DNA from: Sinorhizobium glycinis
GTDB taxonomy: Bacteria; Pseudomonadota; Alphaproteobacteria; Rhizobiales; Rhizobiaceae
Direction: 5' to 3'
Assembly: GCF_001651865.1 (NCBI RefSeq)
Contig: NZ_LPUX01000061.1
Span: 434,001-498,000, forward strand
Length of the DNA: 64,000 bases
The position numbers and the translations under genes are program-made. This document shows positions 16,101 to 53,466 of this stretch, piece after piece. How positions within the stretch are numbered: the stretch's first letter is position 1; each line of letters starts with the position of its first letter. The notes under the pieces are model-generated. The model was not told the origin of the DNA. It saw only the letters and a list, made by a program, of their open reading frames with translations, and ran no database searches.

Positions 16101-16118
16101 TGGTATGAGGTCATACCA
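16101..16118. promoter_or_regulatory. GntR-type operator upstream of the TRAP transporter
   Basis: TGGTATGAGGTCATACCA is a perfect palindrome with 8-base arms and a GG centre, 53 bases before the dctP start. It is the best-formed member of a motif found upstream of at least seven other units in this window. Confidence 0.8.
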
Positions 16119-16170
16119 TCAAAGCTCAAGAAGCCGAGGAGGGCGGAAGGAGCGCTAGAGGGAGGATTCT

Positions 16171-17268
16171 ATGAGAATTGGATCGCTTATTTGCGGTGGC
16201 ATTGCCGCGTTGATCGTCGCAATGACCACTTCGGCTCAGGCCGAGACGAGAACGCTACGCTTTCAATCGGCATATCCGGCATCCAGCACGATCTACATGT
16301 CCGCGGAGACGTGGGCGAAGCGCGTCGAAGAACTCTCGGGCGGCAGGCTGAAAATCGAATTCATGCCCGCGGGCACGATCGTCCCTGCATTCGAGGTGCT
16401 GGACGCGGTCAACAAAAACGTGATCGATGGCGGCCATTCCACTGTCGCTTATTGGGTCGGCAAACATAGGGCAGGAACACTCTTCGGCGACGCTGCCGGG
16501 GGGCCGTTCGGCATGGACATCCTCGACTACGTCGGCTGGCTTTACGAAGGAGGCGGTATTGAGCTTTACCGCGACTACTATCGCGTAGAGCTGAAGACCA
16601 ACATCGAAGTAATTCCGTCCGTCACGAGCGCAAATCAGGCGCTGGGATGGTTTGCACGCCCGGTTGAGAGTTGGGCGGACCTTAAAGGCCGCAAATGCCG
16701 CCAGACTGGCGTGACAGCTGAAGTTTTCGCCTCCTCGGGTATGTCTACGGTGAACATGCCCGGCGGCGAGATCGTCCCGGCAGGTGAGCGAGGTGTAATT
16801 GAATGCGCTGAATTCGTCGGCCCGGCAGAAGATATGGGCATCGGGTTCCAGACGATCTGGAAACATTTCTATCCGATGTCGACACACAATCCCGCGACGA
16901 TCGTCGATTTCCTTGTGAATGGTGACATCTGGAACTCGCTGGCTCCGGATCTCCAGGCTATCATGCAGGCTGCCGCGAGCGAAGCGACCCTGAGGTCGCA
17001 TATCCGGAAAGGCAAGCTCGACGCCGATGCGCTTGACAAGATGCGCAACGAAGACGGCGTGACCGTTCACCGTACGCCAGACGACGTTCTACAGAACATT
17101 CTCGCCTCTTGGGACGAAATCGCGAAGAAGGAAAGCGAGAACAACGCCTTCTTCAAGAAGGTATATGACTCCCAACGCGACTACGCGTCGAAAGTCGTCC
17201 CCGCAAAGCGGCTAATCCAGGCTCCCTACAACCTCGGTGCGGACCATTACTGGCCCGAAGCTAAGTAG
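16171..17268 (+). CDS. TRAP transporter solute-binding protein (DctP family)
   Basis: 365 residues with a signal peptide (MRIGSLICGGIAALIVAMTT, cleavage near AQA/ETR). DctP features include FQSAYPASS at the mature N-terminus, GGRLKIEFMPAG, the ligand-carboxylate region around GRKCRQTG, and GVIECAEFVGPAEDMG. TRAP binding proteins usually bind organic acids through a conserved Arg, so an acid sugar such as an aldonate is a sensible ligand; in this region apionate would fit. It is preceded by a palindromic GntR-type operator. Confidence 0.92.
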   Translation: MRIGSLICGGIAALIVAMTTSAQAETRTLRFQSAYPASSTIYMSAETWAKRVEELSGGRLKIEFMPAGTIVPAFEVLDAVNKNVIDGGHSTVAYWVGKHRAGTLFGDAAGGPFGMDILDYVGWLYEGGGIELYRDYYRVELKTNIEVIPSVTSANQALGWFARPVESWADLKGRKCRQTGVTAEVFASSGMSTVNMPGGEIVPAGERGVIECAEFVGPAEDMGIGFQTIWKHFYPMSTHNPATIVDFLVNGDIWNSLAPDLQAIMQAAASEATLRSHIRKGKLDADALDKMRNEDGVTVHRTPDDVLQNILASWDEIAKKESENNAFFKKVYDSQRDYASKVVPAKRLIQAPYNLGADHYWPEAK

Positions 17269-17275
17269 GATTTAC

Positions 17276-17298
17276 AAGGCGCGGCTAAGCCGCGCCTT
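17276..17298 (+). terminator. Intercistronic hairpin between dctP and dctQ
   Basis: AAGGCGCGGC / GCCGCGCCTT form a 10-base perfect stem with a TAA loop 8 bases after the dctP stop, followed by TCTTCTC. Partial termination here would make the binding protein in excess of the membrane subunits. Confidence 0.75.
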
Positions 17299-17323
17299 CT
17301 TCTCGATTGCCTGGAGATAATTC

Positions 17324-17887
17324 GTGAGCAAACCTGCACCCCCATTCTCGCCCGCGGCACTCAGGGCGATCAAAATCATCGATGGCTTCACCGAGAAGTT
17401 CGTGCTTCTCGTCGCTGTCCTCACTATGCCGTTGGTCCTGTCCAACACAGTGGAAGTCGTCTCGCGCTATCTATTTTCGTCTCCGACGATCTGGGCAGCT
17501 GACGCGACAGTGATGTCATATGGCGCGATGTTCATGCTCGGGTCATCATACGCCCTGCTGAAGGGCGCACATGTGAGAACCGACATATTCTGGGAAAGCT
17601 TCAGCGATAGAAAGAAGGGCGCGATCGACGCCGTCTGCTATGTCGCCCTGTTTCTTCCGGTGATGGCCATCATCTTCTATATGTCGCTGGACGACTTCCT
17701 CTACTCATACGAAATCAACGAGAAATCCACCCTGAGTCTATGGATGCCAGTTATCTGGCCGCTGCGAGGCGTCATCCCACTGACCGCGGTTCTTCTCTTT
17801 TTCCAGGGAATTTCGGAACTGCTCAAGTCACTGTTCGCAGTGACCACCGGGCGGGCGTTCGAGACTCACGAAAAGATCGAGATCTGA
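17324..17887 (+). CDS. TRAP transporter small membrane subunit (DctQ family)
   Basis: 187 residues with four predicted membrane segments (around residues 25-48, 62-85, 103-125 and 148-170). The DctQ-typical VVSRYLF motif follows the first segment, and KGAHVRTDIFW follows the second. It starts with GTG behind CTGGAGATAA and ends 12 bases before dctM. It pairs with DctM to form the transport channel. Confidence 0.9.
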   Translation: MSKPAPPFSPAALRAIKIIDGFTEKFVLLVAVLTMPLVLSNTVEVVSRYLFSSPTIWAADATVMSYGAMFMLGSSYALLKGAHVRTDIFWESFSDRKKGAIDAVCYVALFLPVMAIIFYMSLDDFLYSYEINEKSTLSLWMPVIWPLRGVIPLTAVLLFFQGISELLKSLFAVTTGRAFETHEKIEI

Positions 17888-17899
17888 GGGGTCAACACA

Positions 17900-19237
17900 A
17901 TGAGTTTCAACGACATTCTCAGCGTCGCCATGCTCGGCGGCATGCTCGCTTTCATTTTCGTCGGCTTTCCGATCGCGTTCACGCTTCTCTTTATCGCACT
18001 TGTCTTCGGCTCGACCGGGATCGGTGTGAACATAACCTTCAGCCTCGCCTATCTACAGATTTTCGGGACGATGAAGGACGACATTCTTCCGGCGGTCCCA
18101 CTCTTCATATTCATGGGTTACATGACCGAGCAGGCGGGCCTGATGAACCGACTGTTCGGCTCCATGCGGCAAATCATGGCTCCCTTGAGCGGTTCCCTAT
18201 TTCTTGCCGTGCTTGTCACGGCGACGATCTTCGCGATGGCCACGGGTATCGTGGGAGCCGCGGTGACCGTCCTCGGCATCATGGCCGGGCCGATGATGAT
18301 AAAGGCGGGCTATGATGCGAAGTTGTCAGCGGGCGCCATCGCAGCCGGTGGCACGCTCGGGATCCTCATTCCGCCGAGCGTGATGCTCGTTGTAATGGGA
18401 CCGACTCTCGGAGTGCCCGTGAACCAGCTGTACGGAGCCGCGATGGCACCCGGCTTCATGCTTGCTGTTTGCTATGCGATCTACTGCGTCGCACGAAGCT
18501 ATATAAATCCCCGCGTTGGTCCGATTCTACCAATCGAGGAGCGGGTAGGTAGCGCGATCGAGATCACGCGCGAGTTTGTTGTCGGCGTTCTACCGCTGTG
18601 CCTGCTTATCGTCGCAACTCTCGGCTCCATTCTGTCCGGATTGGCCACCCCTACGGAGGCCGCGTCTTGCGGAGCGGTGGGGGCAACAATCTTGGCACTC
18701 GCTTACCGCAAGCTTAGTTTTTGGACGCTGAAGAATGCCGCAGTGGCCACGGTAGTTACCTCGAGCATGGTTCTCCTCCTCGCGGTAGCGTCGAATGTAT
18801 TCGGCGCTGTCTTCACTCAACTAGGTGGAGCGGCGATCATCACGGACGTCGTTACGAGCATTCCTGTCTCGGACATGTGGAAGCTCGTCATCATTATGGT
18901 CATCATATTCGCTCTTGGTTGGCCCTTTGAGTGGCCCGCCATTGTTCTGGTGTTTCTCCCGATCTTCACGCCGATCGTCCTCCAGCTCGACTTGGGAATG
19001 ACCAAGCCGGAACTCCTGCTTTGGTTCGGTGTACTTGTCGCGGTTAATCTACAGACCGCATATTTGAGTCCGCCCGTGGCGATGTCGGCATATTTCTTGA
19101 GGAACGTCGTCCCCCAGTGGAGCTTGAAATTGATCTACAGGGGGATGGGGCAGTTCATGGTGATCCAGATTGTGTTCTTAATCGCCCTTCTGATGTGGCC
19201 GTCACTAGTACTTTGGCTTCCGTCCGTCCTTAAGTAA
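17900..19237 (+). CDS. TRAP transporter large membrane subunit (DctM family)
   Basis: 445 residues, almost entirely hydrophobic, matching the 11-12 helix DctM transporters. Visible motifs include FVGFPIAFTLLF near the start, PLFIFMGYMTEQAG, GGTLGILIPPSVMLV near residue 150 and GLATPTEAASCGAVGA near residue 250. It is the sodium-dependent transport subunit working with DctP and DctQ. A hairpin follows at 19261. Confidence 0.93.
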   Translation: MSFNDILSVAMLGGMLAFIFVGFPIAFTLLFIALVFGSTGIGVNITFSLAYLQIFGTMKDDILPAVPLFIFMGYMTEQAGLMNRLFGSMRQIMAPLSGSLFLAVLVTATIFAMATGIVGAAVTVLGIMAGPMMIKAGYDAKLSAGAIAAGGTLGILIPPSVMLVVMGPTLGVPVNQLYGAAMAPGFMLAVCYAIYCVARSYINPRVGPILPIEERVGSAIEITREFVVGVLPLCLLIVATLGSILSGLATPTEAASCGAVGATILALAYRKLSFWTLKNAAVATVVTSSMVLLLAVASNVFGAVFTQLGGAAIITDVVTSIPVSDMWKLVIIMVIIFALGWPFEWPAIVLVFLPIFTPIVLQLDLGMTKPELLLWFGVLVAVNLQTAYLSPPVAMSAYFLRNVVPQWSLKLIYRGMGQFMVIQIVFLIALLMWPSLVLWLPSVLK

Positions 19238-19260
19238 ACCCAGCGAGTCTACTATTGCTC

Positions 19261-20934: not shown

Positions 20935-20952
20935 TGGTATAACGTAATACCA
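20935..20952. promoter_or_regulatory. GntR-type operator upstream of the first GntR gene
   Basis: TGGTATAACGTAATACCA is a palindrome with one mismatched pair and a CG centre, about 43 bases before the GntR start. It suggests autoregulation. Confidence 0.75.
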
Positions 20953-20995
20953 TCAGTACCACACCGGCTGATGTGAAAGATTGGAAGGGATGAGA

Positions 20996-21712
20996 GTGTT
21001 GGACGAGCCGAAGAAGACTCAGACGCGCCTCGAACTGGCCTTGGAATACATCACCGGGGAGATTGCCCGGGGCAATCTGAAGGCGGGCGACAAGCTTCCA
21101 AACGAGAAGGAGCTGGCCGAGCAGCTAGGCATAAGCCGTACCCCCATTCGCGAGGCGATGAAGACCCTTTCGGTGGCGGGACTCATAGACATACGGCATG
21201 GACACGGAAGCTATGTGCGAGAAGGGCCGGGCCTGCCCTCCACACCGCTCACCCTGTTTCAGCTCTACCTTCAGGATTCCACCCCCGAAATGCTGATGGA
21301 GCTTCGGGATATCTTCGATCGCAATTGCACCGAAATCGCAGCACAACGAAGAACGGAAAGCGATCTGGCAAAGATGCGGGAATGCATCGATCGCCTGAAG
21401 GCGCTAACGCAACAGCCCGGCGCCTCCTTGGACGACATGTTGAAAGCTGACCTCGATTTTCACCGTGCTGTCTACGAGGCCAGCGGCAACATACTGATCG
21501 TCACCATTGCCGAGTTCGTTCTGAACATGGTCGCGCCTTGGGTGAAGAAATCGCTGGATGTAAGCGGGCGCGTCCGCGCCGTCGAGCTGCACGAACAGAT
21601 GTATGGCTCGATACGCGATCGTACGGTCGGCCAGAAAAACCGAGTGAGCGTCGAAGCAAACATGCAGCACTTCAAGCAATCGTTGGACACAGCAACTTCT
21701 AAAGCGGGATAA
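20996..21712 (+). CDS. GntR-family transcriptional regulator, FadR/FCD subfamily (copy 1)
   Basis: 238 residues. Residues about 10-75 form the GntR winged helix (ALEYITGEIARGNLKAGDKL, ELAEQLGISRTPIREAM, GLIDIRHGHGSYV). The rest is an all-helical FCD ligand domain with the metal-binding pattern RDIFDRN, DLDFHRAVYEASGN and ELHEQMY. It is very similar over its whole length to the GntR at 22852-23553. The GTG at 20996 is chosen because it follows GGAAGGGATGAGA and aligns with the GTG start of the paralog; ATG 20990 is an alternative. It likely binds the GGTAT-type operators in this window in response to a sugar acid or phosphate. Confidence 0.92.
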   Translation: MLDEPKKTQTRLELALEYITGEIARGNLKAGDKLPNEKELAEQLGISRTPIREAMKTLSVAGLIDIRHGHGSYVREGPGLPSTPLTLFQLYLQDSTPEMLMELRDIFDRNCTEIAAQRRTESDLAKMRECIDRLKALTQQPGASLDDMLKADLDFHRAVYEASGNILIVTIAEFVLNMVAPWVKKSLDVSGRVRAVELHEQMYGSIRDRTVGQKNRVSVEANMQHFKQSLDTATSKAG

Positions 21713-21875: not shown

Positions 21876-22757
21876 ATGTCAGCGAAGCGAAAACTGATCA
21901 TCGAAGCGCGCTTGAACGAGTACATGCCGCGCTCCGCGAACCCGAACGTGCCTTTCACAGCGGAAGAGATTGCATTGGAAGCCGCGAAAGCGCGGGAGGC
22001 CGGCGCGAGCATCGTTCATTTTCATGCGAGAGACGCGGAGGGTGCGCCGGCCCACGGCGCAGAAGATTATGCGAAAGCGATCAGGGCGATCCGAGACGCG
22101 TGTGATTGCCTGGTCTACCCGACGCTCGGTCAGATCACGAAGGATGGTCGGGAAAGCCGCCTTGCTCATCTCGAGGTGCTTGCCAAGGATCCGGCCACGC
22201 GCCCTGACATCGCTCCGATCGACACCGGGAGTACGAATATCGACCGTTTTGATCCAGAAGCCCGCAAATTCCTTTCCGACACGATGACCTATCGAAACGA
22301 CGTCGCGACCTTGAAGCTGTTTGCCAAGAGGCTGCCAGAGCTCGGCGTCAAGCCGCAATTTGTGAGCTGGACGGTGGCCTTTACGCGAACCTTCGAGGCT
22401 CTCAGAGAGATGGGCCTCGTCGTTGATCCTGCGTACTTGATGTTCGAGCTGACTGATCAGGGCATCCTTGGAGGCCATCCTGGGACCGTCAAGGGATTGC
22501 TTGCTCACCTCGATTTCCTACCGGCGCAACCGCTCGAATGGAGCGTCTGCAACAAGATCGGCAACATCACCGCCCCGGCAGCGGCGGCTATAGAAATGGG
22601 TGGGCACGTATCCGTCGGCCTCGGCGACTATGGCTGGCCGGAGCTGGGCACCGCCAACAACGGCGATGTTGTCCGCCACATCGCAAATCTCGCGCGGGCC
22701 ATGGGCCGCGAGATTGCCGCCCCGGATGAGGCGCGGGAGATGCTTGGATTGCGGTAA
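21876..22757 (+). CDS. BKACE-family protein (DUF849, beta-keto acid cleavage enzyme), copy 1
   Basis: 293 residues. The TIM-barrel BKACE features include NPNVPFTAEEIALEA, the zinc-binding HxH in IVHFHARD (residues about 48-55), IAPIDTGSTN, and a C-terminal ANNGDVVRHI segment. Canonical members have a Glu zinc ligand in a VGLEDN motif; here it reads VGLGDYGWPELG, so that ligand is Gly. Known BKACE enzymes condense a beta-keto acid with acetyl-CoA to give acetoacetate and a CoA ester. The substrate here is unknown; 3-oxo-isoapionate, a beta-keto acid expected in this pathway, is one candidate. It lies 163 bases after the GntR gene on the same strand. Confidence 0.85.
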   Translation: MSAKRKLIIEARLNEYMPRSANPNVPFTAEEIALEAAKAREAGASIVHFHARDAEGAPAHGAEDYAKAIRAIRDACDCLVYPTLGQITKDGRESRLAHLEVLAKDPATRPDIAPIDTGSTNIDRFDPEARKFLSDTMTYRNDVATLKLFAKRLPELGVKPQFVSWTVAFTRTFEALREMGLVVDPAYLMFELTDQGILGGHPGTVKGLLAHLDFLPAQPLEWSVCNKIGNITAPAAAAIEMGGHVSVGLGDYGWPELGTANNGDVVRHIANLARAMGREIAAPDEAREMLGLR

Positions 22758-22851: not shown

Positions 22852-23553
22852 TCATTCTTGATCGAGCGATTGCATGAAGTGCTGCATGTTGGCGTCGACG
22901 CTCATGCGGTTCTGCGGGCCTATCTCTTGCTTGAGAATGGCATCGTAGATCTGTTCATGGAGATCGACCGCTCTCACACGGCCGCTGACATCAAGCGATT
23001 TTCGGACCCATGGCGCGACCATGTTCAAGACGAACTCGGCTACCGTCATAATGAGTTTATTTCCTGTGGCCTCATAGATCGCTCGATGAAAATCGAGATC
23101 AGCCTTCAACATGTCGTCCAGCGACGCGTCGGGCTGCTCCGTGAGCGCCTTCAGCCTGTCGATGCATTCACGCATCCTCGCGAGATCTTCGTCGGTGCGG
23201 CGCTGCGCGGCGAGTTCTGAGCAATTGCGGTCGAAGATGTCCCGCAGTTCCATCAGCATTTCGGGCGTCGAATCCTGAAGATACAACTGGAAAAGATTGA
23301 GGGGCAGCGCGGGAGCGCCCTTTTCCTCGCGAACATAGCTTCCGTGGCCGTGCCGAATATCGATCAAGCCTGCGACGGCGAGCGTCTTCATCGCTTCGCG
23401 AATGGGGGTACGACTAATTCCCAGCTGCTCGGCCAGGTCCTTTTCGTTTGGAAGTTTGTCGCCGGCTCTTAGATTGCCTTGGGCGATCTCCTTGGTAATG
23501 TAATCCAACGCGAACTCAACCCGCGTCTGCGGTTTCTTCTGACTGTTCAACAC
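22852..23553 (-). CDS. GntR-family transcriptional regulator, FadR/FCD subfamily (copy 2)
   Basis: 233 residues, GTG start behind AAAGGAAAACT. It has the same domain layout as copy 1: winged helix in residues 5-70 (LAEQLGISRTPIREAMKTLA identical but for one residue) and an FCD domain with RDIFDRNCSE, DLDFHRAIYEATGN and DLHEQIYD. It lies about 150 bases downstream of the SDR gene in the same direction, a layout repeated at copy 1 with a decayed SDR. The helix-turn-helix recognition region is identical in the two copies, so they probably bind the same operator and may differ in ligand response. Confidence 0.92.
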   Translation of the reverse strand: MLNSQKKPQTRVEFALDYITKEIAQGNLRAGDKLPNEKDLAEQLGISRTPIREAMKTLAVAGLIDIRHGHGSYVREEKGAPALPLNLFQLYLQDSTPEMLMELRDIFDRNCSELAAQRRTDEDLARMRECIDRLKALTEQPDASLDDMLKADLDFHRAIYEATGNKLIMTVAEFVLNMVAPWVRKSLDVSGRVRAVDLHEQIYDAILKQEIGPQNRMSVDANMQHFMQSLDQE

Positions 23554-23701: not shown

Positions 23702-24493
23702 TCACCTTTCGTCGCCGAGCTTTTTGGATGTCTTGGGATCAAACGGGAACAACAGTCCTGCGGCCAGGAAGCCGCCATCGACATTCAAAGTATGGCCCGT
23801 AATGTAGCGCGCTTCCTCGCTAGCGAGAAATACAGCGGCATCGGCAATCTCCTCCGGCTCGCCATAGCGACGCTGTGGAACCAGACGGTGGTAGGCTTCC
23901 CTGGTCTCAATGGTGTGCATAGTACGCGAAACTTCCGTCAGAATCGGTCCTGGAGCGATTGCGTTCACATTGATGCCGTGGTCGGCCAGTTCAACGGCCA
24001 TGACCTTGTTGAGCAGCTCAACGCCGGCCTTTGACGCGCCGTAAGCGGACCGACCGACGCCACCCTTTTGTCCAGACAGCGAAGCGATATTCACGATCGA
24101 ACCGCTCTTGTGTTCAGCCATAGTCCGCGCGACCGCCTGGGACACCAAGAACGTGCCGGTGAGATTGATGCGAACGACCCGCTCAAACTCTTCCCTCGAA
24201 CTTTCCAAAAACAGGGTTGTCGCGCCAATTCCAGCATTATTCACCAAGATGTCGATCTTGCCGAAGCGCGCGAGCGCTTGATTGACCAGACCGCTCACGT
24301 CTTCATCGACGGAGATGTCCGCACGGACGGCCAGCGCCGCGGAACCGATTTCCTCCGCAGTGAGCTTGGCCGCTTCTTCGTCGCGGTCGCAGACCACGAC
24401 TTGAGCCCCTTCGCGGGCAAAAGCAATAGCGATGGCTCTGCCGATGCCACGGGCGGCGCCCGTTACAATGGCTGTTTTCCCGTTCAAACGCAT
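23702..24493 (-). CDS. Short-chain dehydrogenase/reductase (FabG-like SDR)
   Basis: 263 residues with all classical SDR motifs: VTGAARGIGRAIA at residue 10, LVNNAGIGA near 85, catalytic Ser in NIASLSGQKG, YGASK for the catalytic Tyr and Lys, and a C-terminal NVDGGFLAAG. It probably oxidises or reduces a sugar or keto acid with NAD(P). Its start is 34 bases from the shared operator at 24528-24543, and it is divergent from the DUF1537 kinase. A broken copy exists at 20.6-20.9 kb. Confidence 0.88.
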   Translation of the reverse strand: MRLNGKTAIVTGAARGIGRAIAIAFAREGAQVVVCDRDEEAAKLTAEEIGSAALAVRADISVDEDVSGLVNQALARFGKIDILVNNAGIGATTLFLESSREEFERVVRINLTGTFLVSQAVARTMAEHKSGSIVNIASLSGQKGGVGRSAYGASKAGVELLNKVMAVELADHGINVNAIAPGPILTEVSRTMHTIETREAYHRLVPQRRYGEPEEIADAAVFLASEEARYITGHTLNVDGGFLAAGLLFPFDPKTSKKLGDER

Positions 24494-24527: not shown

Positions 24528-24543
24528 GGTATGAGGTATGATC
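24528..24543. promoter_or_regulatory. GntR-type operator, tandem-half-site form, in the SDR/kinase divergent promoter
   Basis: GGTATGAGGTATGATC carries two direct GGTATGA half-sites. The identical 16 bases occur twice more, flanking the AKR/transketolase divergent promoter at 40281 and 40439. The site lies between the SDR start (24493) and the kinase start (24631). Confidence 0.75.
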
Positions 24544-24630
24544 TTGACCATGTTATGATCCTTCCTTATTACTGCTGTCAAGTGGTTGTGGATGCGCGTT
24601 CATGCGGCGCGCCGCCAGGGAGGTAGAGAA

Positions 24631-25977
24631 ATGGAAGGGAAGAGGCCACTCGTTGGCTTTTACGGTGACGATTTCACCGGTTCGTCGGAAAACCTTGCGC
24701 AGTTTCACCGCAACGGCCTGAAAACCAGGCTTTATCTGCGGGTTCCATCGCAGGAGACGCTGGCGGAAGCAACTCGCGACCTGGATGTCGTGGGATTTGC
24801 GGGAACGGCGCGAGCACTGGATAACTCGCACATCACAGCCGAAGTATTTCCGGCCTTCAAAGCGCTCCGAGCGTTAGGCTGCACGTTCCTGCAGTACAAG
24901 ATCTGCTCGACCTTCGATTCCGCCCCGCAGGTCGGCAACTTCGGGTTAGCCGCGGAACAGCTCGCGGGGGGCGGAGGCGAATACGACCTGGTTGTCTTGG
25001 CTGCAACGCCCGACTTCGGCCGCTACACGGCGTTTGGCAACCACTATGCGAAATTCGGTTCCGAGATCGTGCGACTGGATCGGCATCCGAGCATGTCGAA
25101 CCATCCACGTACTCCGATGAAGGAATCTGATCTCCGGCGGCACCTGGCCGACCTGTGCTCCCTCGATTTCGCCAACATATTCTTGCCGGAGATCCGGGAC
25201 GAAGCGACACTGTCGAGACGCCTCGAAAATTTGCTTGCCGACAGGAAGGGCGTTGTTTTCGACGGCGTGGACAATCGCGATCTCGACAATATTTCCAGCG
25301 CGCTTTGGGAGTATCACAAAAAACGGCCGGTTTTCGCGATAGCGGCCCAGGGTCTTGCTCAGGCGCTCGGCAAGCAATTGGCGAAACACAAGAATCCGCT
25401 CGATCTTCTGGACGTCGGAACGACCATCGCACCCGCGTCCAACCTGCTGGTGCTGTCGGGCAGCTGCGCCATTCAGACGGGCCGCCAGATCGACGCTGCG
25501 GTTCAGGCGGGCTGGGCGGCGCTTGAGCTCAATCCGCTCGAGCTTACCGACAGTCGGGCGGTCGCACACAAAATCGAACTCGTCAAACCGCAGATCATGG
25601 CCCACCTCGCCAATGAGCGGCCGACGATCGTCTACACCGCACGGGGTCACGCAATGGACCGCGAGAGGTTCGAGGACATTCCGCCCCAGCTCATTGGCGA
25701 AGCCTATGCCAATCTCATGGTCGCGGCCAGAAGGGAGACGGATGTCCAACGTGTGGTCCTAGCCGGCGGCGATAGTTCGAGCTACGCGGTCCGGCAGAGC
25801 GCGGCGGAGTCGCTGACCATCAAGGTCTTCGATCGGGTTCAGCACGGTCATCTTTGCGAGCTGATGGGCGGGGGATTGGACGGGCTCGAGGTTCTCCTCA
25901 AAGGAGGCCAGGTCGGCGACGACGACTATTTCATGCGCGTGCTTCGCGGCACCGAGAAGCAGCACGTGGAGGCTTAG
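24631..25977 (+). CDS. DUF1537-family acid-sugar kinase, candidate 3-oxo-isoapionate kinase (OiaK type)
   Basis: 448 residues, ATG behind AGGGAGGTAGAGAA; an in-frame upstream extension to 24586 has no ribosome site. The N-terminal sugar-binding domain opens with FYGDDFTGSSENLAQF and has YKICSTFDSAPQVGNFG near residue 95. The C-terminal nucleotide domain has LLVLSGSCAIQTGRQI and VLAGGDSSSYAVRQSA, followed by the GLDGLEVLLKGGQVGDDDYF ending usual in the family. DUF1537 kinases phosphorylate four-carbon acid sugars and 3-oxo acid sugars. With the RuBisCO-like protein and ApnO-like protein in the same operator regulon, 3-oxo-isoapionate is the favoured substrate (inference). BKACE copy 2 follows after one base. 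Confidence 0.85.
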   Translation: MEGKRPLVGFYGDDFTGSSENLAQFHRNGLKTRLYLRVPSQETLAEATRDLDVVGFAGTARALDNSHITAEVFPAFKALRALGCTFLQYKICSTFDSAPQVGNFGLAAEQLAGGGGEYDLVVLAATPDFGRYTAFGNHYAKFGSEIVRLDRHPSMSNHPRTPMKESDLRRHLADLCSLDFANIFLPEIRDEATLSRRLENLLADRKGVVFDGVDNRDLDNISSALWEYHKKRPVFAIAAQGLAQALGKQLAKHKNPLDLLDVGTTIAPASNLLVLSGSCAIQTGRQIDAAVQAGWAALELNPLELTDSRAVAHKIELVKPQIMAHLANERPTIVYTARGHAMDRERFEDIPPQLIGEAYANLMVAARRETDVQRVVLAGGDSSSYAVRQSAAESLTIKVFDRVQHGHLCELMGGGLDGLEVLLKGGQVGDDDYFMRVLRGTEKQHVEA

Positions 25978-25978: not shown

Positions 25979-26860
25979 ATGAAGAAGCTTATCCTTGAGG
26001 CGCGCATCAACGAGTATGCAATGCGCGACCACAATAGGAACGTTCCTTGGACATCCGACGAGATTGCGGAGACCGCAGCCAGGGTGCGTGAAGAAGGCGC
26101 GTCGATCCTGCACTTCCACGCGCGAACGGTCGACGGCCAGCCATTGAATACGTTCGAAGCTTACGATGATATCATTCGCAAGGTGAAGGCTAAGTCGGAC
26201 ATTCTCATCCTCCCCACGCTCGGCTTCATCTCGAACGATGCCGATGCCCGTAACCGGATCGATAATGTGGTTCGGCTTGCGCAAGACCCGATAACGAAGC
26301 CGGATATCGCACCCATCGATACCGGAAGCGCCAATCTCGAGACCTTCGACCGCGAAAGCGGCAACGTTTCCTTTGCCGAGCGTATCTACGTCAACACAAC
26401 CGACTCGCTCGTGCATTATGCTCGCGAACTAAAGCAGGCAGGCGTGAAGCCCAAGATGGTAAGCTGGTCCGTCGGTTTTACCAGGCGGGCGCTCATGCTG
26501 ATGGACATGGGATTAATCGATGAACCGGGCTACATGCTGTTTCACATGACGGACGGCAAGACGATTACCGGTCATCCCGGAACCCGGCAGGGGCTCGAGG
26601 CACATTTGATGTTCTTGCCGCCAGACCGACGGATTGAATGGACGGCAAACGTGCTGGGCGGCAACCTGCTCGCACTCGCAGATACCATTGCCAAACGGGG
26701 CGGCCACCTAGCCATGGGAATCGGCGACTATCCTTATCCGGAGCTCGACTATCCTTCAAACGAAGTTTTGATCCGCGAGACTGTTCGGGTCATTCGGGCA
26801 GCGGGAAGGGAGCCAGCTACTCCAGAGGAGGTCCGTCAAATGCTTGATCTGAGTAACTAA
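25979..26860 (+). CDS. BKACE-family protein (DUF849), copy 2
   Basis: 293 residues, the same length as copy 1 and clearly paralogous. It shows RINEYAMRDHNRNVPWTSDE, the HxH zinc motif in ILHFHARTV, IAPIDTGSAN, and MGIGDYPYPELD where canonical BKACEs have VGLEDN. The Glu-to-Gly change is therefore shared by both copies. It starts one base after the kinase stop, with GTGGAGGC as ribosome site inside the end of the kinase gene, so it is co-translated with the kinase. Function unknown; action on the kinase substrate or a downstream keto acid is possible. Confidence 0.85.
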   Translation: MKKLILEARINEYAMRDHNRNVPWTSDEIAETAARVREEGASILHFHARTVDGQPLNTFEAYDDIIRKVKAKSDILILPTLGFISNDADARNRIDNVVRLAQDPITKPDIAPIDTGSANLETFDRESGNVSFAERIYVNTTDSLVHYARELKQAGVKPKMVSWSVGFTRRALMLMDMGLIDEPGYMLFHMTDGKTITGHPGTRQGLEAHLMFLPPDRRIEWTANVLGGNLLALADTIAKRGGHLAMGIGDYPYPELDYPSNEVLIRETVRVIRAAGREPATPEEVRQMLDLSN

Positions 26861-30817: not shown

Positions 30818-30851
30818 GTCGTGCACACCGTTCGTAATCAAAACAGAAGGA

Positions 30852-40265: not shown

Positions 40266-40280
40266 GTTTTCACTCCCTAA

Positions 40281-40454: not shown

Positions 40455-40469
40455 TTTTGGGAGGAAGAG

Positions 40470-43480: not shown

Positions 43481-43486
43481 GATTTC

Positions 43487-44536
43487 ATGGCCAGGATCAC
43501 TCTCCGCCAACTGTTGGACGACGCCGCCGAGCACGGATACGGCGTCCCGGCGTTTAACATCAACAACATGGAGCAGGCGCTCGCCATCATGGAAGCGGCC
43601 GATGACACGGATTCGCCTGTCATTCTGCAGGCGAGCCGCGGCGCGCGGGCATATGTGAACGACATCATGCTCAAGCACATGATGGATGCGGTGACGGAGA
43701 TCTATCCGCATATTCCCGTTTGCGTCCATCTTGACCACGGAAACGAACCGAGCACCTGCGTCACCGCGATTCAACACGGCTTCACTTCGGTGATGATGGA
43801 CGGGTCGATCCGTGCTGACGGGAAGACGCCGGCGGACTGGGACTACAACGTAAGGGTCACAAAAAATGTCAGCGAGACGGCCCATTGGGCAGGCGTTTCG
43901 GTGGAGGGGGAACTTGGGGTTCTGGGCTCGCTCGAGACTGGCATGGGCGAAGCCGAAGACGGGCACGGTGTCGAAGGTAAGCTCGATCTGCATCAGCTTT
44001 TGACCGATCCCGACGAGGCCGCGAAATTCGTCGAGGAGACGAAGGTGGACGCGCTCGCCGTCGCAATGGGCACCAGCCATGGAGCCTACAAGTTCTCGCG
44101 CCGCCCGGACGGGGACGTCCTAGCGATGGATGTTATCGAGGCGATCCACCGAAAGCTGCCGAACACGCATCTTGTAATGCATGGTTCCTCGAGCGTCCCG
44201 GAGGAATTGCAGGAAATCTTCAATACCTTCGGTGGCCGGATGAAGCCGACTTGGGGCGTGCCGCTCGATGAAATCCAGCGGGGCATCCGGCATGGCGTTC
44301 GAAAGGTCAACATCGACACCGACTGCCGCATGGCCATGACGGGGCAGGTACGCAGAGTGCTTGCAGAAGACCCGACGGAATTCGACCCCCGCAAGTACTT
44401 GAAGCCCGCAATGACGGCGCTTTCGAAGCTCTGTCGCGAAAGATTCGAGGCCTTCGGAACGGCCGGACGCGCGAGCTCGATCAACGTCATCCCACTTGCA
44501 GAAATGGCGAAGCGGTATCGGGCAGGCTCGATATAG
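43487..44536 (+). CDS. fba: Class II fructose/sedoheptulose-bisphosphate aldolase (CbbA type)
   Basis: 349 residues, 6 bases after the FBPase stop. Class II aldolase features: [12 protein letters not shown], zinc ligand and catalytic segment [58 protein letters not shown] and [14 protein letters not shown]. It condenses dihydroxyacetone phosphate with glyceraldehyde 3-phosphate, or with erythrose 4-phosphate to give sedoheptulose 1,7-bisphosphate. This is the long CbbA form found in Calvin-cycle operons, but no phosphoribulokinase or true RuBisCO is present here. Confidence 0.95.
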
Positions 44537-44570
44537 GCCGAGGCAACGGCGATTTAGAACGGAGATGTTT

Positions 44571-45347
44571 GTGAAGCGGGACGAGCGCAGGCAGCGAATC
44601 ATCGACATGCTGGTCGAAAACAAGGCCGTCGGTCTCGACGAGCTTGCCGATCATTTTGCGGTCTCGAAGATGACGATCCATCGTGACCTCGACGACCTCG
44701 ACCAGGAAGGAGTCTTACGGAAGGTCCGCGGTGGAGCGACGATCGACGCTGGGACGCGGTTCGAAAGCGACTTCCGAATTCGCGCGCGCCAAGATAACGC
44801 GGCCAAGATTGGAATGGCGCAGGCGGCTTTGGAACTGGTCGAGCCGGGTATGACGGTGATGGTCAACGACGGCTCGATGGCAGCGGTGCTCGGCGGGATG
44901 CTGCCGCAGAAGCGGCCGCTCACCCTAATCACCAACAATGCGGAGATCATGGAACGGCTGAAAGGCGAGTTCGGCATAACGCTGATAGCTCTCGGTGGCA
45001 TGTATTCGGCGAAATTCAACGCTTATCTCGGCATCGTCACCGAGGATGCGCTTTCTCGGTTGAGGGCGGACATCGCCTTCATTTCAACCCCCGCCATGAG
45101 CGGCAGGATCGCCTATCACATGGACGACAATGTCGTGCGTGCGAAGCGCGCGATGATTTCGTCGTCGGTCAGGGCCTGCCTCTTGGTCAACCATCAGCGG
45201 TTCGGCCACACCGCCTTGAACGTGCTGGCAGACGTAGCTGAGTTCGATGCGGTTATCACCGATCGCGCGCCTGGAACTGCTGTTCTGGACGAATTTGAAC
45301 GGGCGGGCATCAAGCTCACCATCGCATCGACGCAGGATCCGACATGA
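44571..45347 (+). CDS. DeoR-family transcriptional regulator
   Basis: 258 residues from GTG 44571, which has proper spacing to GGAG; ATG 44565 is an alternative. An N-terminal DeoR helix-turn-helix (RRQRIIDMLVENKAVGLDEL, then FAVSKMTIHRDLDDL) is followed by a DeoRC phosphosugar-sensing domain (MVNDGSMAAVLG, LTLITNNAEIM, ALGGMYSAKFNAYLG). Such regulators respond to sugar phosphates. It overlaps the TPI-like gene by 4 bases. Rhizobial erythritol loci have the same kind of regulator beside tpiB and rpiB, so an erythrulose- or erythrose-phosphate ligand is likely. Confidence 0.88.
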   Translation: MKRDERRQRIIDMLVENKAVGLDELADHFAVSKMTIHRDLDDLDQEGVLRKVRGGATIDAGTRFESDFRIRARQDNAAKIGMAQAALELVEPGMTVMVNDGSMAAVLGGMLPQKRPLTLITNNAEIMERLKGEFGITLIALGGMYSAKFNAYLGIVTEDALSRLRADIAFISTPAMSGRIAYHMDDNVVRAKRAMISSSVRACLLVNHQRFGHTALNVLADVAEFDAVITDRAPGTAVLDEFERAGIKLTIASTQDPT

Positions 45348-46114
45348 CCGGCACATCGCGCTTCTGGATTGGCACCAGCTGGAAGATGAACAAGACGCTT
45401 GCGGAGGCCGAGCACTTTGCGCGGGGCCTCAAGGCCGCAGATGCGACGCGTGATCCGCGCATCCAGCGTTTCGTCATTCCGGCTTTCACCGTCCTTCGCG
45501 AGGTCAAGGCAATGCTCGCCCAAACCTCCGTAAAGGTTGGCGCGCAGAACATGCACTGGGCCGACCAGGGCGCTTGGACGGGCGAAGTCTCGCCGCTGAT
45601 GCTGAAGGACTGCAATCTCGATCTGGTCGAACTCGGCCACTCTGAGCGGCGTGAACACTTCGGGGAGACCGACGAAACGGTGGGCCTGAAGACCGAAGCC
45701 GCCGTCCGGCACGGTCTTATTCCGCTTATCTGCATTGGTGAGACGCTGAGAGACCGCGACAGCGGTAACGCACCGGAAATCCTAGCCGCCCAGGTGCGCG
45801 GCGCGCTTTCGAAATTGGCCCCCGCGCAGAAGGAGGCCGAGGTCCTCCTTGCCTATGAGCCCGTCTGGGCCATCGGCGAGAAGGGCATCCCGGCAACCGC
45901 CGAGTACGCCGATGCGCGTCAGGCCGCAATTATCGCCGTGGCCGAAGAGGTGATCGGCCGAAAGATCCCCTGCCTCTATGGCGGGTCGGTCAATCCGCAG
46001 AACTGCGAAGAACTGATTTCGAGCCCGCACGTAGACGGGCTGTTCATCGGCCGTTCGGCATGGAGCGTCGAGGGGTACCTCGACATCCTTGCGAAATGCG
46101 CCGCCAAACTCTGA
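45344..46114 (+). CDS. Triosephosphate isomerase family, probable L-erythrulose-1-phosphate isomerase (EryH/LerI type)
   Basis: 256 residues with the TIM catalytic residues: Lys in [11 protein letters not shown] (about residue 14), His in [12 protein letters not shown], and Glu in [14 protein letters not shown], plus phosphate loop CLYGGSVN. Canonical TPIs read GNWKMN; the GTSWKMNK variant is what I associate with erythritol-locus TpiB/EryH proteins, which isomerise L-erythrulose 1-phosphate to D-erythrulose 4-phosphate. The RpiB-like gene follows after 13 bases, as in erythritol loci. Ordinary triose phosphate activity cannot be excluded. Confidence 0.88.
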
Positions 46115-46127
46115 GGAGAAACAACAA

Positions 46128-46601
46128 ATGAAAGTTGCCATTGCAGGAGACAGCGCAGGCGAAGGTCTCGCCAAGGTTTTGGCCGAACACCTGAAAGGTC
46201 GCTTTGACGTGTATGAAGTCTCGCGAACCGAGGCCGGTCCCGATCGGTTTTATGCCAATCTGTCGGAGCGCGTCGCCTCTGGCGTGCTCGACGGCATATA
46301 CGACAAGGCCATTCTCGTTTGTGGAACCGGAATTGGCGTCTGCATCGCAGCGAACAAGGTTCCGGGCATCCGCGCCGCACTGACGCACGACACCTATTCC
46401 GCCGAGCGTGCTGCCCTTTCGAACAACGCGCAGATCATCACGTTGGGTGCACGTGTGATTGGACCGGAGCACGCTAAGTCGATCGCCGACACGTTTCTAG
46501 GCAAGACGTTCGACGAAGGCGGCCAGTCGGCGGGCAACGTCAGGGCGATCAACGACCTGGACAGCAAGTATCATCCCGGCGCGCCAAGTTCGAGCAGATA
46601 G
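46128..46601 (+). CDS. rpiB: RpiB/LacAB-family isomerase, probable D-erythrulose-4-phosphate isomerase (EryI/DerI type)
   Basis: 157 residues, ATG behind GAGGAGAAACAACA. It has the RpiB features [15 protein letters not shown], the catalytic Cys in [17 protein letters not shown] (about residue 66), [12 protein letters not shown] and [14 protein letters not shown]. RpiB interconverts ribose 5-phosphate and ribulose 5-phosphate, and the EryI/DerI group converts D-erythrulose 4-phosphate to D-erythrose 4-phosphate. Pairing with the EryH-like gene supports the latter. Confidence 0.9.
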
Positions 46602-50226: not shown

Positions 50227-50249
50227 GGTATCAGGTATAAGGTTATACC
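50227..50249. promoter_or_regulatory. GntR-type operator with three half-sites, upstream of the chemoreceptor
   Basis: GGTATCA, GGTATAA, GG, TTATACC in a row: positions 50234-50249 are a perfect palindrome of the regulon type, and 50227-50233 adds a direct half-site on its left. The single site thus combines the tandem and palindromic forms seen elsewhere. Confidence 0.75.
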
Positions 50250-50382
50250 ACTTCTCAAGTGGAACTTCGATACTGCTGCATGACGCAGCACGGTTTGCCT
50301 GATAAGCGTCCACAGCCCGGAAAGATGGACTCGACGCTAACTCACCTCGTTCAATAAATTTGCTTCCAGCGGCGGAGGAATG

Positions 50383-52257
50383 ATGCGCGATATTCGGGAA
50401 TTTGGCGTGGCACTACGTTTGTCGATCGCTTTCGGGTTGCTGTTGTTCGCAATGGGAGTTCTGTCCCTTTCGTCAATCAGGCAGGTGAATGAGATAAACG
50501 CTAAGCTCAGCCTCATAAATGGGAGTAACAGCCAAAAATACCGGAACGGCATTGATATGCTCGGAACGGTCCGTGATCGAGCAATGGCATTGCGCGACAT
50601 CGTTTTGACCGACTCAGATACGGATAAAGCGACGACAATCGCGATGATGAAAAAGCTGCAGGCGTCCTATGCCTCAAACTCCGCGAAATTGCAGAAGGCC
50701 GTAAATGCTGATGTCTTCAGCACTGCCGCTGAGCATCGTCTTGTTGATGGTCTGAAGGCATTTCAGAATGAAGCGGAACCACTAATCGCCGAAGTTATCA
50801 AACTGACACTGGATAGAAAAAAAGACCAGGCAAAGCCACTCCTCTTAAATCAACTTCGACCCAAGTTGACGGCATGGATTGGCGCTTTGAACAAATTAAT
50901 CGATTACGAGCAAGCATTGAACCAGGGCGTAGGCGGCAAAGTCAAAGCGGCTTCTGACGAGTTTAAATCCCTGACCCTCACTGCGCTAAGTGTGGCTGCT
51001 TTGTTCGGGATATTTGCGGCAGCGCTCACTACCCGCTCAATCATAGCGCCTCTGGCGAAGCTGCAGCAGTCAGTCCGTCAAATGATAGCCGGCGACATGC
51101 AGATTGACCGAGTAATTGAGCGACGAATGGATGAAATCGGCCAGCTAGCTAGGCAGATATCCAGCCTTAAGACCCATCTCTCAGAAAAAGCTGAGCGCGA
51201 TGCGACTGCCGAACATCATCGACAGGATGCTGAGCGGCAGCGTTTGGAGAAGGAAGCGGAAGAGCGCCAGCGGGCTGCCGAACAGACTAGTTCAGCCGTT
51301 GAGCAAGTTGCCGAAGCGTTGAAACAATTGTCGAAAGGCAATCTTCACATCCAGCTCGATCGGCCTTTCACGGAAGCTCTTGAGCCGCTCAGATTGGACT
51401 TCAATTCAGCGATCAGCCAGCTTCGTGATGCGATGTCCGAGGTGAACTATAATGCGCAGGCGATTGCTGCAGGTGCTGAGGAGATCCGTACGTCCTCGAG
51501 CGAACTCGCGACCAGGACGGAGCAACAAGCTTTAGTTGTTGAGCAAACGGCGTCGGTCCTCGCAGATATGACAAGGCAGGTGGTGGACGCAAGTCATAGA
51601 GCACACGAAGCAGGGGTCCTGGTCGGTGAAACCAAAGAGAATGTCGAGAGGTCAGGCACTATAATGCGCGATGCTGTTGAGGCTATGACGAAAATTCGGG
51701 CCTCTTCGGTTGAAATAGGCGATATCATCGGCGTTATCGATGAAATCGCGTCTCAGACAAACCTCTTGGCGTTGAACGCAGGCATTGAGGCGGCACGTGC
51801 TGGTGAGACTGGCCGTGGGTTTGCGGTGGTTGCGCAGGAGGTCAGAGACCTAGCGCAAAGGTCTGCGGCGGCCGCGAAAGAAATCAAGTCCTTGGTGGAG
51901 GTATCTAACCTACATATAAATGATGGGGTCCAGCGCGTGCATCAGGCCGGCAATGCGTTGGGACAAGTCGTTGTTCAGGTGCAGAGTGTTAATCAAAACG
52001 TCGACGCCATTGCTCAAGTTTCTCGCGTTCAAGCCGACGGGCTCAAGGACATCAATTTCTCAGTAGAAAAAATTGAATCAGCGACACAACAAAACGCAGC
52101 AATGGTGGAAGAGTCGACCGCTGCCGTCCACAATCTCGCGAAAGAGGCAGCCTCGCTTTTCGAGATGTTATCCAGGTTCCAGATGGACGACGGGCCAGGA
52201 AACACCAAGCGCATAGAAGGGCCCGCGTTCTCTTTGGCGGTAGCATCGTCGGCGTGA
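50383..52257 (+). CDS. Methyl-accepting chemotaxis protein
   Basis: 624 residues from the second of two ATGs (50383), which has better spacing to GGCGGAGGA. A first membrane helix lies at about residues 10-30, a helical periplasmic sensor of about 165 residues follows, then a second membrane helix near 198-218 ([15 protein letters not shown]), a HAMP domain ([17 protein letters not shown]), and a second HAMP-like segment ([20 protein letters not shown]). The signalling domain has the conserved hairpin [20 protein letters not shown]. The gene stands alone behind a regulon-type operator about 130 bases upstream, so the receptor is probably made when the pathway sugar is present and may sense it or its binding protein. 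Confidence 0.94.
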
Positions 52258-52603
52258 TCTTGCAAAGCGGGTTTCCAAGTTCGCGACGTGACCTGCCACT
52301 GAGAATCTCCTCCAGACTGCCCTGTAATTCGAAAGATTGGACCAGGCGCCTCCTGATCCTCCGGCAGCCTCGATCGCCTTCGCCGCTGCCGTCCGCCTTC
52401 CAAACCTGGCCCGATCGGACGTGTCCTCCCAACGCGAAAACGTCCGCCAGCCCTGCTGCACACAATTGTCTCAAGAGGATTTCCATCCGCGGCGACAGGA
52501 ATCTTGGGCTGACGCTTACGGGCCTATGGTCCGTTCAAAGCGACCTCTATGGTGGGTGCGCTCATAGGTCCTGCGACTCCGACTTCGAAGGAAAGGGAGG
52601 TCG
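52258..52603. other. Gap between chemoreceptor and ApnO-like gene
   Basis: About 345 bases between two convergent genes. Several overlapping short frames exist on both strands, but none has a ribosome site with recognisable protein similarity. Confidence 0.4.
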
Positions 52604-53431
52604 TCAGGTGATGCGCCGGATGCTGGCCGCGATTTCCTTGGGCTCGAATACTTTCTTCCAGTCGTCCTTCATCAGAGCAGGGATCCCGAATTCGATCGCC
52701 TTGTTGCATGCGTCTGAGAAGACGCCAGGCGTTTCCTCGAAAATCACCGCGCCTAAGACGTTCAGGTGGCCGAGCAGGAAATCCCGAGCCGCTTCCTTCG
52801 GGACTCCCCGCGCGACGCATTCGTCCATGGCCTGGCGCATGACGACAAGGAGCGAGGCGCAGACCGTTTCCGACAGGCCGGGTTCGAGCAAGGCAATTTG
52901 TTCGACCGTGACTCGGTGCGATCGCATGACAGGTGACCAGATCACTTTGGCCACTTCTTCCCCAAGAGCATAGTGCTCTTCGGGGCCTTGCATCAGCGCG
53001 GAGACTATGTGCTGCTTGGCCGCCACCCCTCCGAAGAAATCGCGCTTTGCCTGCGGATCCGTCTCATCGTTGAAGATCGGAGGATGGCATGGATGGGTGA
53101 CGAAGTACGTGAGGTCCGGACGATCCGGCAGGTGTCCGGCCGCCGGAGCCGCGGCGTCGAGCGCGATCACCATCGTGCCCGGCCGGAGTTTCGCCTCAAT
53201 GCTCGAGGCCACTTTGCCTATCGCCGTGTCCGGGACGGCCAATATGACCACGTCCACGCCGTCGAGTGCCTGGTCGACGTCAACAGTGGCGATGCCAAGC
53301 TCTCTCTCAAGGCGAGCCTTACCGTCAGCGCTCACTTCGACGTGGCGCACATCGAACCGAGAGCCCTTGAGATTCTTCGTCAGGCGGCATCCCATTTTTC
53401 CACCAGCCCCGAACAGCGCAACCGAAGTCAT
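52604..53431 (-). CDS. Phosphogluconate dehydrogenase-like protein, candidate D-apionate oxidoisomerase (ApnO type)
   Basis: 275 residues, ATG behind CCAGGAGGAGTTC. An N-terminal Rossmann domain (VALFGAGGKMGCRLTKNL) contains VVILAVPDTAIGKVA and then a THPCHPP motif near residue 128. The C-terminal helical domain resembles the phosphogluconate dehydrogenase C-terminal (PGDH_C) family, with DECVARGVPKEAARDFLLGH and the IFEETPGVFSDACNKAI segment. D-apionate oxidoisomerase belongs to this kind of protein and oxidises apionate with hydroxymethyl migration to 3-oxo-isoapionate. Co-regulation with the DUF1537 kinase and RuBisCO-like genes supports the assignment, but it rests on family memory and context. 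Confidence 0.82.
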   Translation of the reverse strand: MTSVALFGAGGKMGCRLTKNLKGSRFDVRHVEVSADGKARLERELGIATVDVDQALDGVDVVILAVPDTAIGKVASSIEAKLRPGTMVIALDAAAPAAGHLPDRPDLTYFVTHPCHPPIFNDETDPQAKRDFFGGVAAKQHIVSALMQGPEEHYALGEEVAKVIWSPVMRSHRVTVEQIALLEPGLSETVCASLLVVMRQAMDECVARGVPKEAARDFLLGHLNVLGAVIFEETPGVFSDACNKAIEFGIPALMKDDWKKVFEPKEIAASIRRIT

Positions 53432-53450
53432 GAACTCCTCCTGGATTTTA

Positions 53451-53466
53451 GGTATGAGGTAATACC
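53451..53466. promoter_or_regulatory. GntR-type operator before the ApnO-like gene
   Basis: GGTATGAGGTAATACC, a palindrome with one mismatched pair, begins 20 bases upstream of the ApnO-like start. It is the rightmost copy of the regulon motif in the window. Confidence 0.78.

Follow-up and report, generated by a model that had tools for sequence, protein, structure and literature searches.

The window analyzed here is a stretch of 64,000 nucleotides (positions 434,001 to 498,000 of contig NZ_LPUX01000061.1, hereafter C61) in the 6.04-Mb genome of Sinorhizobium glycinis (completeness, 99.97%). It contains one operator-defined regulon built around a RuBisCO-like protein (RLP) of the OiaX family. 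What may be new is an additional front end, in many cases plasmid borne, that would lead to the same intermediate as the apionate pathway, the RLP-decarboxylase route for D-apiose and D-apionate reportedly described by Carter et al. in 2018. We see nearly an even chance that the window encodes a catabolic route that joins this pathway at 3-oxo-isoapionate with a front end of its own, by the steps proposed below. In its full form our proposal is tentative: a new RLP pathway, carried on mostly conjugative-typed plasmids of bean and soybean rhizobia, may oxidize an unnamed branched tetritol-type plant compound directly to 3-oxo-isoapionate and not via ApnO; its RLP/kinase cassette would be exchangeable between the OiaX and OiaT types, and its regulon includes a Sua5 paralog. 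We recognized no published description of this cluster, judging from titles and passages.

The genes for the lower part of the route are the following.
29555 to 30841, minus strand: RLP of the OiaX family, predicted 3-oxo-isoapionate-4-phosphate decarboxylase (OiaX model, active site, and tree)
24586 to 25977, plus strand: DUF1537 kinase, divergent from OiaK (33% identity)
45344 to 46114, plus strand: TIM-fold isomerase, LerI-like, 69% identical to the copy in the R. etli oiaX cluster
46089 to 46601, plus strand: RpiB-fold isomerase, DerI (245.1 bits on NF051858; cutoff, 240)

The RLP scores 761.2 bits on the OiaX model NF042437 (cutoff, 700) and is 98% identical to an RLP of Ensifer sp. MPMI2T. 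The comparison covered 85 RLP loci: 80 on genome contigs, chosen as the best among 407 relatives, and five plasmid regions. We sorted them by their neighbor genes into the canonical type A and the type represented by the window, type B. Any locus failing the type B rule was counted as type A, and type A markers were visible in the neighbor listing of the loci assigned by this default. There were 65 type A and 20 type B loci, and the marker sets of both were never found in one locus (n = 85). At 26 columns equivalent or adjacent to RuBisCO active-site residues, mapped by known motifs, the 66 type A and 21 type B RLPs compared do not differ at all. Among these columns, both types share D, G, A, and Q at the equivalents of E60, N123, K177, and H327; the 11 RLPs examined from other clades carry E, N, S/N, and H there. 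Sixteen positions separate type A from type B RLPs, none of them among the 26 columns. In a tree of 66 rows, with 34 of the 66 type A rows used, the type B RLPs form a single clade (100/98) nested within the OiaX clade, and the exact place of this clade among the type A rows is weakly held. The identical active site and the position inside the OiaX clade favor the same reaction for both types. Hence, the conversion of 3-oxo-isoapionate-4-phosphate to L-erythrulose-1-phosphate by the predicted decarboxylase is well supported by homology, as is the subsequent formation of D-erythrose-4-phosphate (E4P) by the putative LerI and DerI. The RLP step and the LerI/DerI route to E4P are already known and not new.

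Type A loci contain NanR, OiaX, OiaK, ApnO, a sugar-binding protein (SBP), an ABC transporter, ApsD, and ApnL. All 20 type B loci contain a kinase, BKACE2, an ABC transporter with the binding protein SBPC, three aldo-keto reductases (AKRs), a metallo-β-lactamase-fold (MBL) protein, the RLP, and Sua5; 19 have SDRb, hyp169, and a GntR regulator, and 15 have the TIM- and RpiB-type isomerases. Most type B loci are known with flanks of 10 kb (range, 10 to 20 kb). Within these flanks, ApnO and DctP were found in none of the 20 loci, and ApsD, ApnL, or OiaK was the best match in none. Four plasmid regions of type B are long; all of them have annotated TIM, RpiB, fbp, and fba genes, and three have tkt. 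The core genes from GntR to the RLP and the TIM/RpiB pair co-occur in several gene orders among the related loci.

A preliminary description of this DNA had assigned the regulon to a D-apiose-like sugar. The regulon and its RuBisCO-like core stand, but D-apiose as the substrate is doubtful because the genome has a canonical cluster elsewhere, on contig C64, and because ApsD, ApnL, OiaK, and the apiose-type binding protein have no close match in the window. The canonical cluster (C64:646000-685999) contains an ABC transporter and encodes proteins with 82% (ApnO), 86% (SBP), 70% (ApsD), 55% (ApnL), 60% (OiaK), and 79% (OiaX) identity to those of R. etli. LerI and DerI were not matched in that interval at E ≤ 1e−20; a LerI/DerI pair with a DeoR regulator lies at 225 kb on C64, and the TIM isomerase of the window, which no LerI model matched, is 72% identical to the copy on C64. 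The link between an RLP and TIM/RpiB-type isomerases had been put forward as new, together with the cbb-like genes. It is not new, since both isomerase families adjoin oiaX on R. etli p42f, where oiaX, the kinase, both isomerases, and an ApnO-like gene lie together (locus L086). The cbb-like tkt/fbp/fba set within the regulon may be new, as may the different front end without an adjoining ApnO in the relatives examined. The SBP of the R. etli locus matches the deposited structures 5ibq and 4ry0, the former of which we take to hold apiose. R. etli RHE_RS26630, which by its neighbors and annotated name is the OiaX of a canonical apiose-type cluster, is treated as a biotin-independent carboxylase in PMC8914248. 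The NCBIfam OiaX label spans a cluster type without D-apiose genes.

The OiaX model search of the S. glycinis genome gave no other RuBisCO-family match, and true RuBisCO was detected in control genomes. The tkt/fbp/fba set is therefore probably not for the Calvin cycle.

The front end and the genes that accompany it are the following.
34370 to 35386, minus strand: SBPC, sugar/polyol-binding protein of the tetritol type
35390 to 38132, minus strand: ABC permease and ATPase; the true start of the ATPase is probably near 37976, below the operator (five related ATPases are annotated at 1,527 to 1,539 nucleotides)
32196 to 33239, minus strand: AKR3, aldose dehydrogenase type; its sole solved relative at E ≤ 1e−20 is L-galactose dehydrogenase 8scc
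33267 to 34316, minus strand: AKR2, a paralog of AKR3 (58%)
39285 to 40313, minus strand: AKR1, with a true start probably near 40265
30852 to 31718, minus strand: MBL-fold lactonase (predicted)
23702 to 24493, minus strand: SDRb, a short-chain dehydrogenase/reductase (SDR), candidate isoapionate 3-dehydrogenase; in 19 of the 20 type B loci, farther out in the 20th (Pararhizobium arenae)
25979 to 26860, plus strand: BKACE2, in 20 of 20 type B loci
38092 to 39105, plus strand: Sua5/TsaC paralog that carries the usual motifs and recurs in every type B locus (20 of 20)
31690 to 32199, minus strand: hyp169, a predicted four-helix conserved protein, recognized by sequence in 19 of the 20 type B loci

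Pfam and NCBIfam scans showed that the window encodes every family that the preliminary description had named; it had counted two AKRs, and AKR1 is a third.

AKR3 matched 18 plasmid records at E ≤ 1e−100, 17 of which are typed conjugative: 13 that are also the top 13 RLP matches, four of Bradyrhizobium elkanii, and L101, which has the AKR alone. For type B loci on genome contigs, the replicon is mostly not known. Phaseolus is named as the source in 10 of the 13 type B plasmid records, some of which are near-duplicates. In a sample of 297 genomes of the family, AKR3 with at least 97% identity occurs only in G000 and in the near relative G257; in an order-wide sample of 397 genomes, AKR3 matched two at E ≤ 1e−110, the second without the module within 20 kb.

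In B. elkanii (one of the four records was read), the front end is 57 to 77% identical to that of the window, with the counterpart of hyp169 recognized by its place only and without a sequence match. The RLP behind this front end belongs to another clade (46% identity to the RLP of the window; 481 bits on the OiaX model, below the cutoff), and the kinase is 45% identical to OiaK versus 31% to the kinase of the window. The 41 kb examined contain a pyruvate kinase gene; tkt, fbp, fba, TIM, and RpiB are not annotated there. The B. elkanii RLP has the same 26 active-site residues as the Microvirga RLP of a cluster with ApsD, ApnL, and an ApnO-like gene, and elsewhere its clade occurs with an SDR and a kinase, with TRAP (tripartite ATP-independent periplasmic) transporter genes in two of three loci and an MFS gene in one. 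In C. pinatubonensis, the RLP locus also has a YrdC-family gene, an ApnO-like gene, enolase, and pyruvate kinase; the genes annotated in this cluster include none for an AKR or an MBL protein. SDRb is 53 to 57% identical to the SDRs of the RLP and kinase clusters in C. pinatubonensis (53%) and B. elkanii, and 42 to 43% to the SDRs from Caballeronia and Chimaeribacter; with two other SDRs of the window it shares about 31% identity. Given its similarity to SDRs beside an RLP and a kinase, SDRb is likely the enzyme that forms the 3-oxo acid. A further RLP clade accompanied by a DUF1537 kinase (L092, L093, L094, L105, and L107) differs at residues N177, F/Y298, and H329; no ApnO was annotated or matched alongside it in these five loci, and L105 and L107 also have TRAP and VOC-family genes.

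The regulon is defined by the following operators and regulators.
16102 to 16117: palindromic operator GGTATGAGGTCATACC, 54 bp before TRAP dctP; at the same place in G257 and P. arenae (G298)
20936 to 20951: palindromic operator before GntR1
24528 to 24543, plus strand: direct-repeat operator GGTATGAGGTATGATC, which separates SDRb from the kinase gene
38017 to 38032: palindromic operator between the ABC operon and the Sua5 paralog (divergent promoters)
40281 to 40296, plus strand: direct-repeat operator before AKR1
40439 to 40454, minus strand: direct-repeat operator, in mirror orientation, directly before the probable tkt start
50234 to 50249: palindromic operator before the chemotaxis gene
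53451 to 53466: palindromic operator, 20 bp upstream of the ApnO-like gene; also in G257 and, with one mismatch, in R. leucaenae
20981 to 21712, plus strand: GntR1, FadR/FCD-type regulator (Pfam), 69% identical to the GntR of the B. elkanii module
22852 to 23553, minus strand: GntR2, a regulator paralogous to GntR1
44496 to 45347, plus strand: DeoR-type regulator

The 16-bp palindrome GGTATNANNTNATACC occurs in five exact copies in the 6.04-Mb genome, all located by pattern search inside the window. The claim of an operator-defined regulon thus holds, and the region given for it, 16101 to 53466, is the span of the outermost two operators. Dinucleotide shuffles predict 0.45 copies, and five were reached in none of 100 shuffles. 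Elsewhere in the genome there are four places with one mismatch, and a reversed control pattern had one match. A search for intergenic palindromes returned a single family of four, and the largest family across 20 shuffles had three members. The direct-repeat form, which surfaced via a weight matrix trained in part on the palindromic sites, has three places genome-wide, all in the window (24528 and the mirrored pair 40281/40439 between AKR1 and tkt); it is the only operator form of the tkt-to-pnt operon. With up to two mismatches, this form was absent from the 65 type A loci. The looser core GGTATN6ATACC (at most one mismatch) has 40 sites in 0.39 Mb from 15 loci of the type B kind, which include B. 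elkanii and several close relatives, and 10 sites in 1.30 Mb from the 65 type A loci. An operator site adjoins Sua5 in 10 of 12 related loci scanned. GntR1 is likely the operator-binding regulator, and we infer that the palindrome is bound by GntR and the direct repeat by DeoR.

We hypothesize that the ABC transporter imports a tetritol-type branched polyol or aldose with the iso-apio skeleton (2-C-hydroxymethyl-tetrose), for which apiitol would be the simplest candidate. The AKRs would oxidize the imported compound to a lactone, the MBL protein would open the lactone to give isoapionate, and SDRb would oxidize C3 of isoapionate to yield 3-oxo-isoapionate without the ApnO rearrangement. The DUF1537 kinase would then form the 4-phosphate, which the OiaX-type RLP is predicted to decarboxylate to L-erythrulose-1-phosphate, and the TIM- and RpiB-type isomerases would convert this product to D-erythrose-4-phosphate. 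Enzymes of the cbb type (Tkt, aldolase, and FBPase) form a sedoheptulose-bisphosphate route, and Tkt, the class II aldolase, and FBPase would here feed E4P into central metabolism. In this strain, the TRAP transporter and the coregulated ApnO-like enzyme may provide apionate as a second entry to 3-oxo-isoapionate. The choice of substrate class draws on SBPC. Its best solved relatives are 4rsm, 4rs3, and 5hko (125 to 131 bits), presumably polyol complexes, and it is 30% identical to the binding protein of the R. etli apiose cluster. Its next plasmid relatives number 21, below 60% identity (43 to 47%), and all three inspected lie in clusters of ABC, SDR, and DhaK/DhaL genes, with one SDR annotated as D-threitol dehydrogenase. 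On chemical grounds, apiitol (hydroxymethyl-tetritol) would give isoapionate by oxidation at C1, with no rearrangement needed.

The ApnO-like gene is the following.
52604 to 53431, minus strand: ApnO-like oxidoisomerase (PF16896, 253.6 bits), 82% identical to the copy in the R. etli apiose cluster

It was identified by PF16896 and close identity, and no NCBIfam ApnO model matched. The preliminary description is supported as to a single operator-defined regulon that includes an OiaX-type RLP, isomerases of the LerI and DerI types, enzymes that use E4P, and an ApnO-like gene. In the family sample, OiaX was over the cutoff in 59 genomes and PF16896 in 80. Five genomes have a PF16896 copy within 50 kb of the type B RLP: S. 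glycinis (at 22 kb), G257, G297 (at 23 kb), P. arenae (at 15 kb, where TRAP and NanR-like genes are close by), and R. leucaenae (at 47 kb, with 97% identity to the copy in the window). In some lineages, the type B regulon thus has ApnO as an accessory, consistent with a shared intermediate.

Several points weigh against a direct route to 3-oxo-isoapionate. The ApnO-like gene lies inside this regulon, and its operator is kept in G257 and, with one mismatch, in R. leucaenae. A PF16896 gene is present somewhere in 14 of the 15 genomes behind type B loci, so that ApnO could serve the front end in trans, and 13 of the 15 carry another OiaX that shares its contig with a PF16896 gene (a partial copy in G305), so that the type B route may depend on type A enzymes. 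Neither PF16896 nor a second OiaX was matched in G301 (Rhizobium sp. R711), but this is one genome only, in draft form. The kinase is distant from OiaK, with 241.3 bits on NF042436 (cutoff, 700). Two of the 16 positions that separate the RLP types (163 and 380) adjoin active-site columns. Moreover, BKACE2, Sua5, hyp169, and the third AKR have no clear job in the proposed chemistry, and the three papers found to mention apiitol are, by title, two cell wall studies and one database paper, leaving its natural source unproven.

An explanation that we consider unlikely, but the most serious of the rivals, is an alternative D-apiose/apionolactone pathway, in which the AKRs would replace ApsD, the MBL protein would replace ApnL, and the ApnO-like enzyme would perform the oxidoisomerization, supplied in trans from type A clusters in the relatives. 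The operator on the ApnO-like gene, the distribution of PF16896 among type B genomes, and an RLP active site like that of canonical OiaX agree with it. However, the genome already has the complete canonical cluster on C64, which weakens D-apiose as sole substrate; SBPC is closer to tetritol-type proteins than to the apiose-cluster protein; the conserved SDRb would be left without a role; and PF16896 was not matched on five plasmid records (four complete type B plasmids and one of B. elkanii) or in G301. A mixed plasmid region, with unrelated sugar operons under one operator family and with the RLP, TRAP/ApnO, and tkt/fbp/fba serving different substrates, seems improbable to us. TRAP, the chemotaxis gene, ApnO, PGI, and PntAB lie outside the conserved module, as far as the limited flanks show, and a block of M20, cupin, ABC, AraD, and AraB genes cotravels, but the GntR-to-RLP core and TIM/RpiB recur together in different gene orders and the exact operators are exclusive to this region. 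Quite improbable as well is a pathway for D-hamamelose or hamamelonate (2-carboxy-D-arabinitol), running through an AKR, a lactonase, a 3-dehydrogenase, a kinase, and the RLP to a pentulose phosphate or to 3-phosphoglycerate and glycolate. Kim et al. reportedly described in 2018 a D-hamamelose pathway of Ochrobactrum anthropi with an RLP. An RLP-containing hamamelose pathway in this species is cited in PMC8914248, PMC9833046 places the acid in Phaseolus leaves, and Phaseolus is the source named in most type B plasmid records (10 of 13). This bias may, however, mirror the choice of sequenced rhizobia; the DerI- and LerI-type isomerases indicate tetrulose phosphates; and the active site is identical to that of OiaX, whose substrate is one carbon shorter, which weakens hamamelose as the substrate. 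The direct tetritol-type route to 3-oxo-isoapionate remains the reading that we prefer.

The other genes of the region are the following.
16171 to 19237, plus strand: TRAP transporter DctP, DctQ, and DctM (Pfam), with a palindromic operator upstream
21876 to 22757, plus strand: BKACE1, a member of the β-keto acid cleavage family; one of the 20 type B loci has a match
27870 to 29495, minus strand: PGI
40398 to 44536, plus strand: transketolase, class I FBPase (probably from about 42458), and class II FBP aldolase of the TIGR01521 type
50380 to 52257, plus strand: methyl-accepting chemotaxis protein, in the regulon, with an operator upstream

The TRAP system presumably takes up an acid. PGI was matched in 1 and PntA in 2 of the 20 type B loci, with the limited flanks, and the gaps at the PGI and PntAB places in G257 measure only 1.2 and 0.7 kb; both look like local additions. 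Among solved structures, BKACE2 is nearest to cis-epoxysuccinate hydrolase 5zmu (302 bits); the 3-keto-5-aminohexanoate cleavage enzyme 3c6c scores much lower (62 bits). With a hydrolase as the nearest solved relative, we dropped BKACE2 as a Claisen enzyme and claim no role for it. The 169-residue hyp169 lies between AKR3 and the MBL gene; a CC and a C-terminal LGA are invariant in 10 aligned sequences. It had no family match, and its AlphaFold2 (AF2) model (mean pLDDT, 70.8) gave no clear fold match in the PDB (best E value, 0.081). Another Sua5/TsaC copy lies on contig C53, and the YrdC-family gene of C. pinatubonensis is within the RLP cluster itself (L103). At 6346 to 14784, the window has a block of an M20 peptidase, two cupins, an ABC transporter, and AraD-like and AraB-like genes, whose binding protein had 11 plasmid matches at E ≤ 1e−90, all in type B records. 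Just left of the window (C61:428000-434600, L120) are another DUF1537-type kinase match and a HAD-like match.

Type B clusters are present on pPRF81b (L060) and in R. leucaenae (L008). According to PMC3557214, the bean-exudate uptake locus teu is located on pPRF81b; PMC8416774 and PMC5968715 give teu as teuBAC1C2, and PMC4125696 places it on the symbiotic plasmid of R. etli CFN42. Reading the gene names, teuBAC1C2 would encode two permeases. The queries used matched no second permease just left of the window, and the plasmid records that the three sugar-binding proteins of the window matched (38, 11, and 28) included none from CFN42, in a collection whose inclusion of the CFN42 plasmid is unchecked; an identity of the window's ABC systems with teu is not established. 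The co-location on pPRF81b suggests that the teu substrate might be approachable through type B. More broadly, the proposed pathway would give RuBisCO-like decarboxylases a second role with plant sugars, define a testable substrate class, and tie both to the plasmids of bean- and soybean-nodulating bacteria.

Among known systems, the D-hamamelose pathway of O. anthropi, as cited, is similar in that an RLP ends a branched-sugar route, but its RLP is reported as an oxygenase. The ABC clusters for D-threitol and other tetritols (L116 to L118) have an SDR neighbor and resemble the window or B. elkanii, with identities in L116 and L117 of 45 to 46% for the binding protein and 52 to 60% for the permease and ATPase, but they end in DhaK/DhaL kinases and have no RLP. 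Clusters of the OiaT type (transcarboxylase/hydrolase), such as that of Microvirga ossetica (L106), which we infer to be of this type, probably share the same upstream node, and in B. elkanii the RLP that accompanies the front end has active-site residues identical to theirs; in the window, by contrast, the RLP is of the OiaX type and its product would proceed via E4P rather than 3-phosphoglycerate. The exchange of RLP types behind a single conserved front end amounts to a clean natural experiment on how RLPs define pathway ends. Closest is the apiose/apionate pathway (PMC6302742 and NCBIfam names), with the cluster of R. etli CFN42 p42f, which shares the OiaX-type RLP, the LerI/DerI-type isomerases, the DUF1537 kinase, the ApnO-like enzyme, and an rbs-type ABC transporter. 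Unlike it, the window lacks ApsD, ApnL, and OiaK and has a different binding protein, the AKRs, the MBL lactonase, the SDR, BKACE2, the Sua5 paralog, and hyp169, together with its own operator and regulators and with tkt, fbp, and fba in the regulon.

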